From: Tricholomella constricta
Lineage: Eukaryota > Basidiomycota > Agaricomycetes > Agaricales > Lyophyllaceae
Length of the DNA stretch: 64,000 nt
Reading direction: 5' to 3'
Assembly (NCBI GenBank): GCA_013368375.1
Contig: JAACJP010000021.1
Coordinates: 186,001-250,000, forward strand
This document shows, piece after piece, positions 10,905 to 25,699 of this stretch. Each line of letters opens with the position of its first letter. Within the stretch, counting starts at the first letter, position 1. Position numbers and translations under genes: made by a program. The notes beneath the pieces are model-generated. The model was not told the origin of the DNA. It saw only the letters and a program-made list of their open reading frames with translations, and did not search any database.

Positions 10905-12690
10905 TTAGGCGGGAGGTCTGAACAATTGATGGATGGCCAGTGGGAGGTGGTGGGAGGTGGCGGGGGGCCGAAGAGCGTGTCGAGAGGCGTCGGGGCGCTC
11001 GACAGCACCGGCGACGACGAGCACGCCATTTGGCAGCGTGCTCGTTGTCGGAGTGGGTGTAGAGAGGCCTGTGGGAGGTGTTGGTGGCGGTGATGGGGTT
11101 GTGGGAGGTGGTGGGAGGTGGTGGGAGGCGGTGGAGGGCCGGGGGCGGTCGATGATGCCAGAATCGACGAGCACACCGCTTGGCAGCGTGCTCGTCATCG
11201 GAGTGGGTGGGGAGGGGTCCAGGGGGGGTGTTGGCAGTGGTGGGGAGGTTGTGGGAGGTGGTGGAAGGTGGTGGGGGGCCGGGGAGCGGGTCGAGAGGTG
11301 TCGGGGCGCTCGACAGCGCCGGAGTCGACGAGCACGCCATTTGGCAGCGTGCTCGTCGTCGGAGTGGGTGGGGAGGGGTCCAGGGGGGGTGTTGGCAGTG
11401 GTGGGGAGGTGGGGAGGTGGTGGGAGGTGGTGGGAGGCGGTGGGGGGCCGGGCAGTGGATCGAGAGGCGTCGGGGCGCTCGACAGCACCGGCGACAACGA
11501 GCACGCCGCTTGGCAGCGTGCTCGCACTCGTCGTCGGTGGGGAGGGATCCAGGGGGGGTGGAGGTGGTGGTGGGGAGGCGGTGGGAGGTGGTGGGAGGCG
11601 GTGGAGGGCCGGGGGCGGTCGACGATGCCGGAATCGACGAGCACGCTGCTTGGCAGCGTGCTCGTCATCGGAGTGGGTGGGGAGGGGTCCAGGGGGGGTG
11701 TTGGCAGCGGTGGGGAGGTGGTGAGAGGTGGTGGGAGGCGGTGGAGGGCCGGGGGCGGTCGACGATGCCGGAATCGATGAGCACGCTGCTTGGCAGCGTG
11801 CTCGTCATTGGAGTGGGTGGGGAGGGGTCCAGGGGGGGTGTTGGCAGCGGTGGGGAGGTGGTGAGAGGTGGTGGGAGGTGGTGGGAGGTGGTGGAGGGCC
11901 GGGGGCGGTGGACGATGCCGGAATCGACGAGCACGCCGTTTGGCAGCGTGCTCGTGGTCGGAGTAGGTGGGGAGGGGTCCAGGGGGGGCGTGGGCAGCGG
12001 TGGGGAGGTGGTGGGAGGTGGTGGGAGGTGGTGGGAGGTGGTGGGAGGTGGTGGGGGGCCGGGCAGCGGATCGAGAGGCGTCGGGGCGCTCGACAGCACC
12101 GGCGACAACGAGCACGCCGCTTGGCAGCGTGCTCGCACTCGTCGTCGGTGGGGAGGGATCCAGGGGGGGTGGAGGTGGTGGTGGGGAGGCGGTGGGAGGT
12201 GGTGGGAGGCGGTGGAGGGCCGGGGGCGGTCGACGATGCCGGAATCGACGAGCACGCCGCTTGGCAGCGTGCTCGTCGTCGGAATGGGTGGGGAGGGGCC
12301 TGTGGGAGGTGTTGGTGGCAGTGGTGGGGTTGTGGGAGGTGGTGGGAGGTGGTGGGGGGCCGGGAGCGTGTCGAGAGGCTTCGGGGTGCTTGACGATGTC
12401 GGAGACGACGAGCACGCCGCCCCATGGCGTGCTCGCCCTCGAAATGGGTGGGGAGGGGCCTGTGGGAGGCGTTGGTGGCAGTGGTGGGGTTGTGGGAGGT
12501 GGTGGGAGGTGGTGGAGGGCCGGGGAGCGGGTTGAGAGGCAGCGGGGCGCTCGACAACATCCGAGACAACGAGCACGCCGTTTGGCAGCGTGCTCGGTCT
12601 TGTTGTTGGTGGGAGAGGTCCAGGGAAGGCGTTGGTGGTGGTGGGCAGGCGGTGGGAGGTACTGGGAGATAGAGGAGACCATTTGCCACA
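10905..12690 (+). repeat. G-rich minisatellite, 11 hairpin-bearing units
   Basis: The array is built from a 140-181 bp unit. Each unit has a G-rich part (runs of GGTGGGAGGTGG and GGGGG) and a core where CGAGCACGC and GCGTGCTCG form an inverted repeat around CGCTTGGCA or a variant. The right arm starts at 11036, 11186, 11347, 11516, 11656, 11796, 11946, 12127, 12267, 12427 and 12588. Unit length changes mostly through the number of GGTGGGAGGTGG sub-repeats. Long open frames run on both strands because the composition lacks stops, and none looks like a gene. The strong G/C strand bias and G runs would allow G-quadruplexes on the + strand. Confidence 0.93.
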
Positions 12691-16151: not shown

Positions 16152-17554
16152 AACTACGAAAAAGGTATGTAAGTTGTGGTTATGGGCTTGACGATGATTG
16201 TTGAACATAGATTGTTAGGGCTGTATGTACTGTTATGTATCAATGACATTTAACGTAGCGTGGTGTATAGTTAGAGTCCAAGGCACACGTGGTTTACCAT
16301 CGGACTCATGTTGTCCACGTTGAACATCAAAAATTTCACCGCTGTGCCATTCCCCTCCCCCCCTCGCTCCGAGGACTCCCAAATGTCAACCCCAGGCCGC
16401 AGGAAGGAGCCGCGCAAAGGAAGCCTCCTGAGGATCGAATCCTCTAAATATTCTCGCCCAACAGCAACCACACGCTCAAGATCAAGTCCGCTAATCACTC
16501 AGCAGCCTCCTTCTGTGGTACTTTCTGCAAGTACTTCTTCTCGGGAGAACCCAACCCAACACAATCAGCAACCACAGCCCGATGTACTGGCTGGAGTGTC
16601 ACAGGCTGCTGGTAGATATCCGCAACGTCTACCATGAGATTCAACTGACAAGTGTGATCAGAAACAGTACCAGCCTCGAATCCATGGTCATTCGATTCGG
16701 CTGGTCTACCGTTCGACGAAGACCTTTTTGGACTCAATTTGGAGGCGACAGAACAGCTGCCTGAACCGCCGCAACGCCCACTCGACAATGCTGATGCCGA
16801 GTACTGGTACGCTTTGTCAAATGTCGGTGCCATATTTCGTCTCGACAAATATATGTTCGTCTTTCAAAATTGGGATGCGACGTCCCGAATGCTTGAAGTT
16901 TGTCTCATCTTCAACCAATTTATCTTCCACTGATTTCGAGTCTAGATTGGAGTCTATTACCACATCACACGGCTGCCACGAAGCGAAGAAATTTACGGTA
17001 TTACTTGCACATGCCCTGGATGGAAAGCACGCTACACGTGCTGTCACCAACGCGTTCTGGCTCACTGTGTGGCCGAAATCGAAGAGCTGCCTCATCTCGC
17101 GCCTTTTCCTGCCCCCCCTGCTGTCTTTCTCCAATTTACACCTTTCCAAGATCGTCTCATCTTCTCGTGTGGTTCCGTATCTAGCGGGAGCCGCTATGAT
17201 TCCACAAAACGTTGTATTGTCACATTTCAGCGGTCCGGCCGCTGGCATTGCCAATCGTGCCGTTATTCTGACATGTGTAAACATCGCCCGCATGCCCTCG
17301 CCTTTGCGGCCGAGGCTTCTCTCATCCCAGAAGGTCTTCAAGCGGGCATTGATACCCATCTTGCAGCTGATGGCAGCGAAAACGATTGTGAGAATGCGTT
17401 ACTCATTCAAGCAGCTGGACGCGACGATGGCTTGGGGTTACGGGGTTCTATATCCTGTTTACCGATACCTCCACCCCGCTGGTGCTCGCTTACATCAGAA
17501 CCGTCATACAGCGCACCAAAGGTGTCATTTCACGGCCCTTATTTGGCTCTTGAC

Positions 17555-17834
17555 TGTTGGCCCTCTGGCCTATTTCTCATCGCTTACGTTACCTCTCGCA
17601 CGTGACTGTCGGTACATTTGCTTCCGTTCCATCGCCTCCATCCTCAGTCGTCTTTCCTTCATTATCAGGACACTGAGGATGTGAGTTATACCTCTCTATC
17701 ACTTACTCTTTCTTATATCTACTAATTGACTTGTAGAATAACTTGTTTCCATTCTAGGTATAGAATGAATAGTCGTCTTTCCTTCATTATCAGGACACTG
17801 AGGATAATAACTTGTTTCCATTCTAGGGCCATCA
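17555..17834 (+). repeat. Copia 5' LTR containing a segment and its spliced copy
   Basis: Begins TGTTGGCC and ends GGCCATCA. Inside, 17646-17680 plus 17737-17758 recurs without interruption at 17771-17827. The missing 17681-17736 starts GTGAGT, contains TACTAATTGAC and ends TTGTAG, so it has the form of a spliceosomal intron. Confidence 0.95.
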
Positions 17835-17983
17835 GGTTATGGGCCCCGGCCTAGATTTGGACTCAATTCGTTTGCCTCGTTTCCTAGATACCTCGGCGAT
17901 CTCACTGGATCCTTTCCAATCTCTGTAAATTTCCGCATATAGTCACCTCGATCTCACACGATCGACAATTCAACTCCGCGACG

Positions 17984-20900
17984 ATGACGGAACCTTTTCA
18001 TCCACAGGCCCAGGGGCATGCTCAACCGGCTCAGTCCACTTCCCTTGGGTCGCACCCGTCAAATCGTCGTACTCTGTCAGTTCCCAATGTACTTCCGAGT
18101 GGACCTTGGCTCGACCCGGTCGTTCCCCAGTCGTTCGCCGTCACCTCCGCTCCAGTTTCACCTTATTATAACGTTCTGAATTCTTGGTCTCAATCGCATT
18201 TTCCTTCTCAGTCCCCGTCTCATCCTATTTCTGTTCCTTTACTTCAACCGCCTCCCACTTTTACTGGCTACGCAGGACCTGGACTTTTTCCTTCGCAGAT
18301 ACCTCTTCATACTTCGTCTAATCTTCGTCTTCGACCACCGACTGCTCCACTCTCTTCTATGGGACTTTCATACGCTTCATCGAATCATCTTCCTATTATT
18401 CAAACCCCTGCTCCCACTCCCGTTGCACCCTCTTCCACGGCCCACGGTACCTCTTTACCTTCGCATACGCTTACTTCTCCATTTTCTGTCGAACATCCTC
18501 CTCGTCACTTATCACCGCATAATCCTGTTGCCCCCATCCCTTTACGTCCTATTCCTTTTGTTAACCGTGTCGTGTCCCCCTCTTTTCACACTCCCCTTGC
18601 TCCTGCACCGCCTTATTTCCAACACCAATTCAACCCTGTACCAAATTTCCCTCAACGCATACATTCTGCTTCCCCTACTTTGACTCATAATTCTCTCTTA
18701 CGATCACTTACCCCTTCTGCGTCTTCCCTTCACTTGCCCCGACCCGCATCGATGCACCGTCTATCTCCCCTTTCTCCCTTTCTACATCAGCTACCGCTCC
18801 CTGCTCCTACGCCTCCTCCTTTACCCTTAGATCCGCCTGCTTTACCTTTAGCTCATGCCACTCTACCTACTCCCTTTAGAACGATTTCCACTTATACCAA
18901 GCCTGATTTTCCTAACTTATCCAGTATCCCCCTTCTTTCCTCGGCGAACGACTGGTCGAAATGGCACTCGGCGGTCCTCCAGGTCATCGAAGCAACCGGC
19001 CTTTATGATCACATCGTGGACGTTCTTCCTCACAACGTTTTACTTGATCCTACGGCCTATCCCTCCCTTCCCCCAGTCATCGACAGAGCCAATTACACTC
19101 CGGAGCAACTTGAACATTACAAAACTTGGTGGGCCCAGGACGACATCGTCTCTTTCGTTCTAGTCGGCAAACTTGGTTCTACTCCACAGTCCTTGATCCC
19201 TCCGAAGCGTGATGCCTGGGGAAACCCCCAACGTACTGCTCGGGATGTCCTTCACATCCTGCGAACCAAATACGGTGTCTACGATGCTAATTCTGCGGCC
19301 ATCGTCAGGGAATCTGTTCTGTCGAAGAAGGTTATCGGAAGTGATGTCTCCTCATACGTCGATCTTTGGCGTAAGGCGGTACTCCAGGTTGAAGGATCAC
19401 ACTGGGATTTTTCTTCATACGAGAAAGTCCAACGTTTCGCCGATGGTCTCCCTCGCACATACGAATACGAAGCTTTGCGTGTTCTTATCCGTGAAGGATT
19501 CAATTCCCATCCTCCACATGGTGTCATAACTTTCCACGACGCTTCCCAAGCCGCCCTCAATATTGAACAAGCGAGCCGTCGCCTTTCGGCCTCTCATGGA
19601 TCCACTCCCCGCCGTTCGCAGGCTCCTCCCTCCGTTCCAACCTCTAATCCCACTCAAAACTCGTCGACGAATCCTCCTGCTGATCCTACCAACCCGTCCA
19701 CTTCCAATACTGCCACGCGTCCTCGCTGCTCGAACTGTGGTGCTTTAGGACATGTTGCTGGAAACTGTTGGGAACCGGGTGGCGGCGACGTTGGGGGAAG
19801 GGATCGTTACCTCGCGGCTAATCCACCACGCCCTCGTGCTCATATTGCTACTGCCTCTGATACGTTGCTTGAACCCGTCGTAGAGACCGTCGAATCCGAA
19901 ATTGAATCGGCCCCCGAGCCCATTGCCTCTTACCCATCGTCTGATGCGCCTCCTGTCAATCTTTCGGATTCAGCTTTATATTCGGATTTCACGCAAGTCA
20001 CCAGTCCAATTGTTCTAGCATCTCTCGCCGACCGCTTTAACGCTATCCTCGACTCCGGCTGCACCGTCCATATTATCCGCGACCGAAGATTCTTTTGGAC
20101 GTACGACACGTCCCTTGCTGTCCCCGTTGGTACCGCAAACTGTGGTACTCTCCAGACTTTAGCTAGAGGCGAAGTGCGTTTCCGTATCGTTCTGGATGGC
20201 ATCGAACAGATTATCTCCCTCCCGGATTGTCTTCACGCTCCGGATGTACCCATTAATCTTCTCTCGGTTGGGTCCATGACCGAGAAGAACGTGCGCCTGG
20301 TCTTTGAGAAGGATGCGACCTCCATCCAATTCCCAGATGCTTCTCCTTCTCCCACCTCGCACACAATCGAAGCTACAGTAGTCCGTCGACTCTCCTTCCT
20401 CCACTTGGATTTCGTACTCCCTCCGTCCTCACCTGTTCCTCGGTTAACCGAAGACCTGATCGCGTTTCCTGCTGTTGAACAACGGGATTCGGACCTTCGA
20501 TTCCACCGCGTCGACCTCACCCCCAATCTATGGCACCGTCGATTCGGCCATTTAGGTCTTGACGATACTCGAGCAGTCCTTACGAAATCCTTTGCTACTG
20601 GTGTCAAATACCAGGGACCTTTCCTCGACACTCACTGTATCCCTTGCCTCATTGGCAAACATCCTCAACGGCCTTTTGATCGTTTCGCTCGTCGAGCTAC
20701 TCGTGTATGCGACCTGCTTCACATGGATACATGTGGCCCTTTCCCGGTGCAAACACCTCACGGGAAAAGCTTCTTCCACACCATCCTCGACGATTTTTCC
20801 AATTATGGATCCACTTCTCTCCTCGCCCACAAGGATGAAGCAGTCGCCCACTATCTGACTACAGAGGCTTCGTGGGAGCGTAAATCTGGTAACTCGGTTC

Positions 20901-23530
20901 TTGCTGTTCGTTCCGACGGCGCTGGCGAGTTCACCGGAGGTGAATTAAAAGCGCATTTCTCTTCCCGCGGCATTCAGCATCAAGTTACCGCTCCGTATGC
21001 TCACGCTCAGAATGGAAAAGCTGAGAGATACATCCGTACACTCGAAGAAACAGCACAGACACTTCTTGCCGAGTCTGGTTTACCTCCATCCTTCTTCGGT
21101 GATGCTGTACTTACCGCACAATATCTTCGGAACCGCCTTCCTACCTCGACTCTCCCCGCAGATTCTACTCCGTACTCTATCATGGAAAACTCGAAGCCGG
21201 ACCTCTCCCACCTTCGCGTATGGGGTTGTCAGTGTTTCGCTCTGATTCCAGCGGAAACTCGTACGAAAGGCGGTCCAAAACGGTTTGAAGCTATCTTTGT
21301 TGGATATGAAGACAATCGCATTGGCTGGCGATTACGCGACCTAAATGGTCGATACCATTTCTCTCGGGACGTCGTCTTTAACGAGAACGTCCGAGGCTCG
21401 CTTCGCCACAGCGCTATTGTCCCATCGTCTCCGATAATTACTTCTTCCCCACCTGAATCCCAACCTGGCTCGCCTCTTTCCGACGAACCTGAGCCAACAT
21501 CATCTTCGTCCATCGAACCTCAACCGACCGCGTCTCTCCCCGTCGAGCCGTCCCCTCCGGTTCCAGCACCTGCACTTCGTCGAACTGCCCGCGTCCAAAA
21601 ACTTACAGTCCCCGGTGTAGACCACGCAACCACCATTAAGAACCGCGATGAACGACTTACTCGCCTCCGGGCTGCCCGCGCATCTCGTTCTGGGGTTGTT
21701 CATCCCCAACAAACCCTACCAGCTATCGTCGACTTCCTCTCCATCCTCTCTGCTCAATCCTTTGACACTCCTGATGATGACCTCGTTTTCCATGAAGCCG
21801 AAGTCGTCTCCCTCTACAAATCTCTCATCGCCCACCCTGATCCTCTTCCCTGGCAAACAGTCCCGCGCACCTTCGACCTCGATCGTCCTCCTGCAACCTA
21901 TGAAGAGGTTCTTCTGCGTCCGGACTCCGAGGTATGGAAAGCGGCAATGCAAAGGGAATATGAAAGCCTTCAGGAACTCGGCGTATTCAAACCTACCATC
22001 TTACCTCCAGGACGCAAAGCCATTGGTCTCCGCTGGGTTTTCGACTACAAGTACAATCCAGACGGCTCCATTATCCGCGGGAAAGAGAAGGCTCGCATTG
22101 TCGCCCGCGGATTCGCTCAACGTCCAGAGGATTATGGGACCACTTACGCCCCAGTCGCCAAACTCACTAGCATCCGCATTGTTTTAGCTTTTGCCGCACA
22201 ACACAACTTTGAACTTCGGACGTGCGATGCTAAGACCGCTTTCTTAAACGCTCTCCTCGCGCATAAAGTCTTCGTCAAGCAGATACCTGGCTTTCCAGAG
22301 GCCGATCCCCTCCTCGTCCTTCTTTGCATCCGAGCGCTTTATGGGTTAAAACAGTCCTCGCACGAATGGTATAGCCTGCTTCGTCGAGTTCTCGAGGACA
22401 TTGGTTTGATTAGATGCGAGGTTGACCACGCTGTCTTCTATGCAAGGTTTTCCTCTCCACCCCACCCGTCTATCCCCATGCCGGTTGATGGTTCCGACCT
22501 CATCATCATCATGCCCATCCATGTCGATGACGGCCTCGTCGCTACGAACTCCGAGCCTTTGTATTTCTGGGTCCTCCAAGAGATGAATCGCCATTTCACG
22601 GTCGTCGATCTTGGCGCCGCCTCCTTATATTTGGGAATTCGCATTACCCGTGATCGCCCTAATCGCAAGCTCTGGCTATCCCAGCGCCCCTTCGTCGTCG
22701 ATCTCCTCACCCAGTACAACTTACTCAATGCTCATCCCGTATCTCTTCCTCTTCGACAGAAGCTATCTTCGTCATCACTAGCTCCTCCCAACTCTCTTCC
22801 GGATATCGCTGATGCCGACGTCAAGGTTCATTACCAACGTCTCGTTGGCTCGATCCTTTACCTCTCTCTTTGTACGCGACCCGATCTAGCTTTCACTGCT
22901 ATGTCCTTGGGCCAGTTCAATGCGAATCCTTCCCGTCATCATCTCCTCGCCGCAAAATCCGTCCTCCGATACCTCCTGGGCACTGCAGACTTAGCCCTAG
23001 AATACAACTTCGGTCAAGCTCCGGTCGGACCTCCGCTCAGTGTCCTTATTCCCAAAAATTGTGGCATGATGGACGCTGACTGGGCTGGCGATGAAGACAC
23101 TCGGAGGAGCGTATCGGGCTACGCTTTCTTCATTTACTCTAGTCTCGTTTCCTGGAGCGCAGTTCGTCAACGCACGGTCGCTTTATCTTCGACGGAAGCA
23201 GAGTACATGTCGATTTCTCATGCCATGAAAGAGGCCCTCTGGATTCGTCAATTCATGCGCTCGCTTTCGCTTCCCATCCCCGATCCTTTTCCCCTCTTAT
23301 GCGACAATCAAAGCGCACTCGAAATTGCGAACTCGGATAGCACCTCCTCCCGCTCCAAACACATCGACATCCGCTATCATTTTATTCGTGATCATCTTCG
23401 CGCTGGTTCTTTTTCGACTGCCTGGATTCCTACTACGGACATGACGGCCGACATACTTACTAAACTTCTTCCGCTCCCTCTTCATCGCAAGCACTCCCGC
23501 GCACTTGGCCTTGTTCCTTTGACACTGTAA
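17984..23530 (+). CDS. Copia gag-pol polyprotein
   Basis: A single 1,848-residue frame from ATG 17984. Residues 1-300 are Pro/Ser-rich and disordered. The gag domain spans about 310-530. A zinc knuckle of exact C-x2-C-x4-H-x4-C form (CSNCGALGHVAGNC) is near 580. The protease active site is DSGCT near 685. The GAG-pre-integrase region has LWHRRFGHLG and a CxxC. Integrase catalytic residues are seen in HMDTCGPF, VRSDGAGEF and QNGKAERYIR. After a Ser/Pro-rich linker, reverse transcriptase runs from RWVFDYKYNPDG to HVDDGLVATNS (VDD in place of the usual YVDD). RNase H has DADWAGD, SSTEAEYM and LCDNQSA. No stop or frameshift was found. The frame starts about 150 nt after the LTR. Confidence 0.96.
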   Translation: MTEPFHPQAQGHAQPAQSTSLGSHPSNRRTLSVPNVLPSGPWLDPVVPQSFAVTSAPVSPYYNVLNSWSQSHFPSQSPSHPISVPLLQPPPTFTGYAGPGLFPSQIPLHTSSNLRLRPPTAPLSSMGLSYASSNHLPIIQTPAPTPVAPSSTAHGTSLPSHTLTSPFSVEHPPRHLSPHNPVAPIPLRPIPFVNRVVSPSFHTPLAPAPPYFQHQFNPVPNFPQRIHSASPTLTHNSLLRSLTPSASSLHLPRPASMHRLSPLSPFLHQLPLPAPTPPPLPLDPPALPLAHATLPTPFRTISTYTKPDFPNLSSIPLLSSANDWSKWHSAVLQVIEATGLYDHIVDVLPHNVLLDPTAYPSLPPVIDRANYTPEQLEHYKTWWAQDDIVSFVLVGKLGSTPQSLIPPKRDAWGNPQRTARDVLHILRTKYGVYDANSAAIVRESVLSKKVIGSDVSSYVDLWRKAVLQVEGSHWDFSSYEKVQRFADGLPRTYEYEALRVLIREGFNSHPPHGVITFHDASQAALNIEQASRRLSASHGSTPRRSQAPPSVPTSNPTQNSSTNPPADPTNPSTSNTATRPRCSNCGALGHVAGNCWEPGGGDVGGRDRYLAANPPRPRAHIATASDTLLEPVVETVESEIESAPEPIASYPSSDAPPVNLSDSALYSDFTQVTSPIVLASLADRFNAILDSGCTVHIIRDRRFFWTYDTSLAVPVGTANCGTLQTLARGEVRFRIVLDGIEQIISLPDCLHAPDVPINLLSVGSMTEKNVRLVFEKDATSIQFPDASPSPTSHTIEATVVRRLSFLHLDFVLPPSSPVPRLTEDLIAFPAVEQRDSDLRFHRVDLTPNLWHRRFGHLGLDDTRAVLTKSFATGVKYQGPFLDTHCIPCLIGKHPQRPFDRFARRATRVCDLLHMDTCGPFPVQTPHGKSFFHTILDDFSNYGSTSLLAHKDEAVAHYLTTEASWERKSGNSVLAVRSDGAGEFTGGELKAHFSSRGIQHQVTAPYAHAQNGKAERYIRTLEETAQTLLAESGLPPSFFGDAVLTAQYLRNRLPTSTLPADSTPYSIMENSKPDLSHLRVWGCQCFALIPAETRTKGGPKRFEAIFVGYEDNRIGWRLRDLNGRYHFSRDVVFNENVRGSLRHSAIVPSSPIITSSPPESQPGSPLSDEPEPTSSSSIEPQPTASLPVEPSPPVPAPALRRTARVQKLTVPGVDHATTIKNRDERLTRLRAARASRSGVVHPQQTLPAIVDFLSILSAQSFDTPDDDLVFHEAEVVSLYKSLIAHPDPLPWQTVPRTFDLDRPPATYEEVLLRPDSEVWKAAMQREYESLQELGVFKPTILPPGRKAIGLRWVFDYKYNPDGSIIRGKEKARIVARGFAQRPEDYGTTYAPVAKLTSIRIVLAFAAQHNFELRTCDAKTAFLNALLAHKVFVKQIPGFPEADPLLVLLCIRALYGLKQSSHEWYSLLRRVLEDIGLIRCEVDHAVFYARFSSPPHPSIPMPVDGSDLIIIMPIHVDDGLVATNSEPLYFWVLQEMNRHFTVVDLGAASLYLGIRITRDRPNRKLWLSQRPFVVDLLTQYNLLNAHPVSLPLRQKLSSSSLAPPNSLPDIADADVKVHYQRLVGSILYLSLCTRPDLAFTAMSLGQFNANPSRHHLLAAKSVLRYLLGTADLALEYNFGQAPVGPPLSVLIPKNCGMMDADWAGDEDTRRSVSGYAFFIYSSLVSWSAVRQRTVALSSTEAEYMSISHAMKEALWIRQFMRSLSLPIPDPFPLLCDNQSALEIANSDSTSSRSKHIDIRYHFIRDHLRAGSFSTAWIPTTDMTADILTKLLPLPLHRKHSRALGLVPLTL

Positions 23531-23586
23531 TTTTCCCTCTTATTTCTTTTTCTTTGCTCTTTCTCACTCCCGCGATGATGGGGTTG

Positions 23587-23866
23587 TGTTGGCCCTCTGG
23601 CCTATTTCTCATCGCTTACGTTACCTCTCGCACGTGACTGTCGGTACATTTGCTTCCGTTCCATCGCCTCCATCCTCAGTCGTCTTTCCTTCATTATCAG
23701 GACACTGAGGATGTGAGTTATACCTCTCTATCACTTACTCTTTCTTATATCTACTAATTGACTTGTAGAATAACTTGTTTCCATTCTAGGTATAGAATGA
23801 ATAGTCGTCTTTCCTTCATTATCAGGACACTGAGGATAATAACTTGTTTCCATTCTAGGGCCATCA
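23587..23866 (+). repeat. Copia 3' LTR
   Basis: Same 280 bases as 17555-17834 as far as I can compare, including the internal unspliced and spliced segment pair. A short G-rich stretch (GATGATGGGGTTG) just upstream is the likely polypurine tract. Confidence 0.95.
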
Positions 23867-25699
23867 TTGACAGTGGTGCACAATGCTGCTGTGGATTTTC
23901 GTGGTCTGCTGCTCTTTTTCACAGTGAACTGTCAGCACACGCATGTGTGGCTCCATTGTCTCAAGTCGAGATCCAAACCGCGGTACTCTTTGACCTCACG
24001 AATTGCCGTGAGGTCTCTATCGAACTAATTCCTTGCCCAACGTGTCGCCACAGTCGCCGCTTTATTGGTCCAGATTTGAGTCCTCGTGGCATCTTCAACT
24101 GGAACAATACAATGTTGTTCACTCATGATCTATTGAACAGCTTCACAAATGCATACACGGCATCAGAAACCCCGTTCTCTGCCTTCTGTCTAACTGTCTC
24201 GCGCATGTACATGGAACATGGCATTGATGTCAAGTTTTGTTCTGACGACACCTTCGTTCGTGTTTGGTTCGCATTTATCCGCCTTCAACAGCTCGACAGT
24301 GGTATGAAATGTACTACTTGTGGGCCATCGCCAGCAATTGTTATTGCAAATGGAATAAGTCTCGCAACGAGTACTTCCAAGCTGAACCACCGACGTGTCC
24401 GACCCCCCACGTTTACAGATCAATTGAGCCCTTCCATCGAGTCGATCTCCACCTACAAGGCTCGAGGCCTACCTGCTGTCACGCAGCCTAATATACGTTC
24501 TCTGGTCAATAAGTTGCTCGAAATTTCGATTGCCCATGCCGCATGCGATTTACCAAACACACAAGACCTTGAAACACTCTACCCAGAGTTGTATGCATTG
24601 ATTGACTTGTACTTCCGTCTTGGTGTGGCCTCCCCCCATCATAAAGCCTATCGAGGACTCCTACAGCAGATCGTGGCTCCTGATATTGTCCTTCAACTCA
24701 TTCCTCATGCGGCAATTGCAACACTCCAAGAAATAGCACATTCAGACGCTCAAGTACCAGAATGGATTCAATTTCTAGTCCCAGCATTTGGTCGCGTTGT
24801 GAATGGATATCGCAGCAAAGAATCGTTGATCCCTCGAGAGGTGCGCAGTATTGCAGGATGGCTTGCCAGACGTGCAAATACAGTCTTTGCACAACTCGCT
24901 CAACACGAGCCCGCACCTCCTGATCTCACAATGCAACCAGAGCAATGGGAGACTACAGGCACATATTATGGTCTTCCAGCCATACGCCGCCGTCGCGCAT
25001 ATCCTAAATTACGAAACGACTCATCTACACTCGATCGAGATGCTGAGGAGATGGGTGACTGTAACAAATTTTACAAGACTTACTCGAAAAATAATCTGAC
25101 GGGTGGAATACTTGTCCTTTGGTGTACCCATTCTATTTGCCTTGGTTTCCACTCAATCCCTGTCGCGGAGGGCCGAAACGACGTTTTTTCCGCAATTTAT
25201 ACTCGTTTCCCCACAGCACCAGAAATCATCGTCTATGACTTTGCTTGTCAGCTGGCTCCATACTGCCTTGTTCGCGAGGCATCATACTTCCGCAACACCA
25301 AATTCCTAATCGACGAAATGCATGCTCATGATCACACCCGATGTGGGCAGGCATGCTTCGCCAGTAATTCCATGCAATTTGATGACCGCATGCGTTCTAT
25401 AAACACAAGTGCTGCAGAATGCGGGAACAAGGGCATGAAAAGGATTAGAAAGAGTGTAAGCTTTATGGCATTTGAGCATGCTGTACTGTTTACAAAGGCT
25501 TTTCTGGACGTGTGGAACCGGAATGCTATTAATCGTCTAGAAAGAGTTTATTCTACGTGATTATATGTAGCTTTAGTACTTCTATGTGCGTACAATTATA
25601 GGAATTACCCTGTGCAGTATATGTGATGCATGGCTCATTATACTTATACGTACGTAGAATCTTTATGTCAGTAAATCTTCGTTACTGGTCAGTCCATGT

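Follow-up and report, generated by a model that had tools for sequence, protein, structure and literature searches.

The long terminal repeats (LTRs) of a Copia element in the genome of Tricholomella constricta hold a segment interrupted by an intron-like insert and, beyond a short spacer, a second copy of the same segment from which the insert is missing. The reading preferred here, to which a probability of roughly 0.7 is assigned, is that replication of the element remakes this second copy from spliced RNA, by way of a cDNA of the spliced leader (A-B-e in the lettering used below) that would land on the downstream repeat A'.

The Copia element and its repeated LTR segment

The element lies in the window, that is, the whole stretch of 64,000 nucleotides that was analysed, and the order of its LTR is U3-A-[intron 1]-B-s-A'-B'-e, with the parts located as follows.

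17550..17554 and 23867-23871 (unstranded): target site duplication TTGAC, flanking the Copia insertion
17555..17834 (+): 5' LTR, 280 bp, equal to 23587-23866 at 280/280 positions
17555..17645 (+): U3 of 91 nt, putative promoter; about 33 nt ahead of A it has a TATA-like motif, TACATT
17646..17680 (+): A, first exon piece, 35 nt, where copy-to-copy identity begins
17646 (+): putative transcription start, the first base of A (TCAGT)
17681..17736 (+): intron 1, 56 nt, GTGAGT...TTGTAG (GTGAGT...TACTAATTGACTTGTAG), intron-like and missing from copy 2
17737..17757 (+): B, small exon, 21 nt, AATAACTTGTTTCCATTCTAG
17758..17770 (+): spacer s, GTATAGAATGAAT, A+T-rich; holds a putative 5' splice site for intron 2 and a putative poly(A)-like signal
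17758..17826 (+): putative intron 2, s-A'-B', 69 nt, GTAT...CTAG, judged by its sequence ends
17771..17826 (+): A'B', second copy, which is copy 1 without the intron (A' 17771-17805, B' 17806-17826)
17827..17834 (+): e, LTR end piece, GGCCATCA, read from the sequence
17835..17846 (+): candidate primer binding site (PBS) GGTTATGGGCCC, directly after the 5' LTR
17984..23530 (+): gag-pol open frame, 1848 aa, with domains Pol_BBD, gag_pre-integrs, rve, SH3_retrovirus and RVT_2
23574..23586 (+): GATGATGGGGTTG upstream of the 3' LTR, likely the polypurine-tract region
23587..23866 (+): 3' LTR, the same parts at an offset of 6032
23678..23858 (+): A-intron1-B-s-A'-B' within the 3' LTR, with the putative poly(A) site in its A'

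The element at 17555-23866 is a member of Ty1/copia; a profile search with the frame in three pieces returned gag_pre-integrs, rve and SH3_retrovirus followed by RVT_2, which is the Ty1/copia domain order, and the closest Pol protein matches, at 77%, are from Hypsizygus marmoreus. It is also young, its two 280-bp LTRs being identical and flanked by the TTGAC duplication. The candidate primer binding site is presumably the complement of the anticodon arm of tRNA-iMet, of the half-tRNA type; the arm sequence TGGGCCCATAACCCA gave 0 matches when it was searched as a tRNA gene motif. The Copia element seemingly sits inside a KDZ transposase gene (window flanks 17069-17554 and 23881-25557): the downstream flank, 23881-25557, has a CxC4 match from profile position 17 and a KDZ match below the cut-off, and the upstream flank, 17069-17554, has no profile match. 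Elsewhere in the window, positions 11015-12668 form a GC-rich minisatellite whose units, each about 140-170 bp long, are based on GGGAGGTGGT steps.

In the first-pass annotation, a 35-base flank and a second flank had been described around a 56-base insert running from GTGAGT to TTGTAG, and this arrangement was recovered at 17646-17757. B had been given 22 bases, of which 21 (17737-17757) stand; the 22nd, the G at 17758, does not belong to it, being a base common to both copies that opens s (GTAT) in the first and e in the second. The same segments do stand joined next door without the insert, A' (17771-17805) and B' (17806-17826) together equalling A+B at 56/56 sites, and the pair is indeed present in both LTRs. 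An exact split repeat of such a type arose in 0/200 base shuffles (50 each of the loci L148-L151), so that chance is no explanation for it.

Genome survey and concerted evolution

Searches of the same genome gave at least 33 matching places, and 80 of 88 LTR loci parse in the layout of the window element, a proportion biased towards matches since the repeat was a requirement of the parser and conserved motifs served as seeds. The pattern GACACTGAGGAT had 94 matches, some of which are not LTRs, versus 5 for its reversed control; patterns for intron-bearing first copies and for intron-less second copies had 69 and 72 matches, respectively, each with 0 in the controls and with a few judged by eye to be unrelated. 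With 85% identity over U3 and copy 1 as the threshold, the 80 LTRs fall into 38 families. The eight unparsed loci are decayed (L026, L029) or truncated (L037, L076, L104, L109), or carry damage at the intron end and an insertion within A' (L108, L117). Excluded beforehand were pattern matches other than LTRs of this type (L070, L078, L079, L086, L089-L094, L102), single-copy LTRs (L084, L131, L133, L134, L136, L137), the fragments L075 and L135, a decayed LTR (L143), a long stretch (L132) and duplicates of places (L001-L008, L040-L069), and L145-L164 stand outside the family and divergence counts. No relative was found among viral contigs, searched by RT piece, DNA pattern and alignment A1, or among prokaryote genome contigs. 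At one locus (L125; C11:856404 and 856997), two LTRs of the same family lie less than 600 bp apart, and the two elements L096-L099, on the separate contigs C36 and C37, have identical A, intron, B and s and differing flanks.

The pair, first noticed in a single element, thus recurs genome-wide with a family-specific sequence, A being distinct in 38/38 families and B likewise in 38/38. Copy 2 is closest to the spliced form of its own family's copy 1 in all 38 of 38 families, at an identity with a median of 1.00 and a minimum of 0.889, versus a median of 0.667 and a maximum of 0.930 when it is compared with the copy 1 of other families; the families themselves are about 33% apart. Across the 77 LTRs with a complete A, 43/4031 sites differ between the copies, and 50 of these LTRs are without any difference. 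In 27 nearest pairs, which were drawn from 50 elements with equal A and B lengths only and some of which share a member, 183 differences occur in both copies, 31 in one copy and 2 otherwise. As viewed by eye, several differences between copies are C versus T at TCG near the start of A, with T in the second copy (L012, L018, L027/L028, L032/L033, L095, L100), a pattern such as methylation of cytosine or a process resembling RIP would leave.

The age of the copies was compared with that of the LTRs in 28 elements with both LTRs, matched by position and strand, of which 25 carry a 5-bp target duplication (TG/CA ends, shifts of up to 8 nt allowed). Copy 1 and copy 2 differ at 20/2931 sites (0.68%) and the 5' and 3' LTRs of the same elements at 46/7717 sites (0.60%), and the two divergences are correlated (Spearman 0.57, p 0.0015). 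In two cases a copy difference is common to both LTRs of an element, i.e., it was there at its birth. Such closeness of the copy-copy and LTR-LTR values indicates that the two copies trace back to a common sequence roughly when both LTRs are produced by reverse transcription, and rewriting must be frequent, since cycles without it would accumulate differences. It may not be needed in every cycle, because an unspliced leader placed on the first A also rebuilds the LTR. A single template-switching accident, as initially proposed, is therefore not borne out, given that copy 2 follows copy 1 through 38 families and shares the clock of the LTRs.

More distant relatives were sampled from the at least 142 RT matches in the genome, eight elements being taken from tiers with 34-60% RT identity, and the full two-intron layout, with differing A and B, was found in five of the eight.

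L146 and L147 (59 and 60% RT identity): full layout; the repeats abut in L147
L148 (44% RT identity): full layout; LTR pair identical over 343 aligned nt (cut by the stretch end)
L152 (41% RT identity): full layout; LTR pair identical over 448 aligned nt
L150 (34% RT identity): full layout; LTR pair identical over 330 aligned nt
L145 (59% RT identity): single-copy form
L149 (37% RT identity): simpler A-s-A'-e, with one intron-like piece, GTATGT...CCCAG
L151 (36% RT identity): no such repeat found

The A-s-A'-e form also occurs in L154, the partner LTR of L149, and in the relatives L156-L158; substitutions and small indels of the L149 lineage are present in both copies, with one mismatch between copies in L157. 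Throughout this one-intron Copia lineage (L149, L153, L154, L156-L158; contigs C53, C9, C39), s begins with GTATG. The layout is either old in the Tricholomella constricta genome or of repeated origin.

Splice-site-like signals and the proposed rewriting model

The earlier proposal that the insert is an intron of the LTR leader gains support from its ends, and the insert looks like a spliceosomal intron: it starts with GT in 37/38 families and ends with AG in 38/38 (79/80 and 80/80 of the LTRs, from a parser that favoured GT and AG), the opening hexamer being GTGAGT in 16, GTACGT in 13 and GTAAGT in 4 of the 38 families. The joined A'B' has just the sequence to be expected at a spliced A/B junction. 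Removal of intron 1 alone leaves A-B-s-A'-B'-e, so that a second copy placed directly before e needs a further step. A feature beyond the first reading is the second-intron signature of s-A'-B' (GTA...YAG), which is needed for A-B-e. With a length of 52-71 nt, s-A'-B' looks like a second intron, in which case the fully spliced leader would be A-B-e, and the end of B would appear to act as an exon end in copy 1 and as a 3' splice site in copy 2.

The signature consists of several parts. The spacer s begins with GTA in 37/38 families and in 78/80 LTRs. Among the families L101 stands apart, its cut being displaced by one base; among the LTRs, L101 and L114 do. The exact match between copies stops 0, 1 or 2 nt past AG in 22, 13 and 3 families, respectively; this AG is YAG in 37/38 families, and the 12 nt ahead of it are 77% pyrimidine. 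Because B was trimmed to its last AG, the AG itself is uninformative, and the informative features are the closeness of the match end, the preceding Y and the following GTA. The second 5' splice site is weak, being GTATAA-like with the usual G at +5 missing in most families, and YTRAY branch motifs are unenriched, with 14/38 in intron 1 and 17/38 in intron 2 versus 14.6 in shuffles. Moreover, s is 80% A+T and holds an AATAAA-like hexamer in 24/38 families, versus a shuffle mean of 9.4 and a maximum of 17 over 500 shuffle sets. A TATA-like motif of a loose set lies 29-37 nt before A in 26/38 families, versus a shuffle mean of 2.6 and a maximum of 10 over 300 sets, a spacing that fits a transcription start at A.

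In the proposed cycle, transcription would begin at A, and the host spliceosome would excise intron 1 and s-A'-B' from the 5' leader to give cap-A-B-e-PBS. The transcript of the 3' LTR would be cleaved and polyadenylated within A', guided by the A+T-rich s, and the RNA 3' end would read U3-A-intron1-B-s-A'; in the 5' leader, the poly(A)-like signal of s would fall within intron 2. A PBS-primed minus strong-stop cDNA of A-B-e would then move to A' at the RNA 3' end, and its extension across s, B, intron 1, A and U3 would yield U3-A-intron1-B-s-A-B-e, with copy 1 derived from the parent 3' LTR and copy 2 from the spliced copy 1 of the 5' LTR. Copying of spliced leader RNA into the LTR through reverse transcription, as the first-pass annotation had suggested, is the best explanation for the second copy.

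When leader states were enumerated against 3'-end states, the observed LTR resulted from an unspliced leader on the first A, which involves no rewriting, and also from doubly spliced A-B-e on the last A, which does; half-spliced leaders resulted in A-i-B-e or A-B-s-A forms. In the genome, the A-i-B-e form was found 0 times, with 55/80 LTRs detectable by motif content, and the A-B-s-A form 0 times, with 66/80 detectable. Three observations together favour double splicing: the termini of s and B resemble splice sites, no half-spliced forms turned up, and the copies keep the clock of the LTRs.

The same enumeration gives U3-A-B-e as the product of a doubly spliced leader on the first A, and this form occurs at L084, L131 (a single-copy 5' LTR), L133, L134, L136 with L137, and L145; in the one-intron lineage, a U3-A-e form occurs at L155, L159 and the pair L160/L161. 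Whole insertions of single-copy form are L136/L137 (duplication AGCCT) and L160/L161 (GGAAG, by eye), and mixed elements, in which the 5' LTR is single-copy but the 3' LTR is full, are L134/L100 (duplication ATCTC) and L159/L158 (TATCC). U3-A-B-e was considered as proof of doubly spliced cDNA and rejected, because a deletion between A and A' leads to this product too and because mixed elements occur; the single-copy form is supportive of double splicing, not decisive. In both mixed elements the copy loss falls in the 5' LTR. Within about 9.2 kb upstream of L084 there is no 5' LTR, and in the single-copy-form element L136/L137 both LTRs run on past the usual CATCA for seven more bases, GCCATCA.

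Other routes to the same LTR have to be weighed against rewriting by double splicing. An unlikely one is slippage, in which intron 1 alone is spliced, the leader is A-B-s-A'-B'-e, and reverse transcriptase leaves B' or A' for the first copy, dropping one repeat during strong-stop synthesis. Direct repeats about 10 nt apart invite such jumps, and the weak second 5' splice site also speaks for them, but near-constant jumping would be required with no A-B-s-A form found among the 66/80 detectable LTRs, and the GTA start of s (37/38) and the pyrimidine tract and YAG that end B would be left unaccounted for; at the same time, the sole intron-like piece in the L149 lineage is s-A', GTATGT...CCCAG. 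Distinctly improbable is an intermolecular route, with polyadenylation in the first A and a spliced strong-stop cDNA that is first transferred to A' of an unspliced leader packaged with it, extends to the cap and goes on to the 3' end. It yields the same LTR, and a passage of PMC12789967 gives two RNAs per retroviral-type particle; an extra transfer is nevertheless needed, and the poly(A)-like signal in s (24/38 families versus 9.4, maximum 17) stands against it, in a count that covers s.

Genomic gene conversion or unequal exchange is a very improbable way of keeping the copies alike. Tandem repeats do homogenise, and losses of a copy from one LTR exist in the mixed elements, but conversion would have to act on a B of 10-24 nt amid unlike DNA without ever carrying the intron to copy 2 (0 found), and it would have to match the 5'-3' LTR clock; the old LTRs L026/L029 and L143 show decayed copies, not copies kept identical. 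Almost no credence is given to one ancient spliced-cDNA insertion, or a small transposon in a tandem repeat, inherited ever since: it accounts for one family taken alone, but the copies should then diverge with the families, and 183/216 differences in the 27 nearest pairs are concerted. A single ancient event is excluded on this count, and so is insertion of the 56-base piece into an older tandem repeat, which had been named as the finding that would overturn the original reading.

Known systems and biological meaning

Introns in the RNA of LTR elements are known from several systems. For SIV and HIV-2, a passage of PMC1766366 deals, in connection with RNA packaging, with a functional intron located in the R-U5 part of the leader that derives from the LTR; the likeness is a putative intron in the LTR leader, read here from the sequence, whereas that passage mentions neither a spliced second LTR copy, as found here, nor a rewriting, as proposed here, and the window element, not being a lentivirus, is not a member of the SIV/HIV-2 type. 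EVADE (Ty1/copia) and Ogre have functional introns in LTR-element RNA that serve subgenomic RNAs, according to a passage of PMC12786077; here, by contrast, it is the LTR leader that contains the introns, and the replication template would be its spliced form. The same passage describes intron-marked Ty reporters, in which a spliced intron is gone from the new DNA copy; those reporters are artificial and record plain loss, whereas here copy 1 retains the intron whose loss is recorded in copy 2.

Priming and strand transfer can be compared similarly. In Drosophila copia, a half-tRNA primes minus-strand DNA (PMC5371799); the PBS here looks to be of the half-tRNA type, and the LTR architecture is absent from the passage in question. 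In retroviruses and Ty elements, strong-stop cDNA is transferred onto a terminal repeat, as passages of PMC12789967 and PMC5371799 describe, whereas the matching 3' repeat here would be the downstream A', which would be spliced out of the 5' leader. A passage of PMC5542766 deals with a vector and has no bearing on this comparison. In searches of open-access literature, no description of an LTR carrying its own spliced leader was found, subscription journals being mostly uncovered. Membership in Ty1/copia is of a known kind, and the rebuilding of an LTR from spliced RNA, as proposed from the sequences, appears to be new.

LTR elements need the same sequence at both ends of their RNA, together with a poly(A) signal that is ignored at the first end and used at the second, and in the usual picture spliced RNAs are excluded as the replication template of retroelements. 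Both of these LTR-end problems, the matching ends and the choice of poly(A) site, look solved by introns here. The LTR would preserve, as cDNA, how its own leader was spliced, and thereby splice sites, start site and rewriting would become readable from genomic DNA. The finding suggests that spliced RNA can be a standard template for retroelement replication, contrary to the usual picture. A broader proposition, for which the chances are put at about even, is that nuclear splicing belongs to the regular course of LTR regeneration across a broad range of Copia lineages, in which splicing of the 5' leader would make the repeats for transfer, the 5' poly(A) signal that must be ignored would be spliced out, spliced RNA would be the normal template, and each LTR would be a fresh cDNA record.
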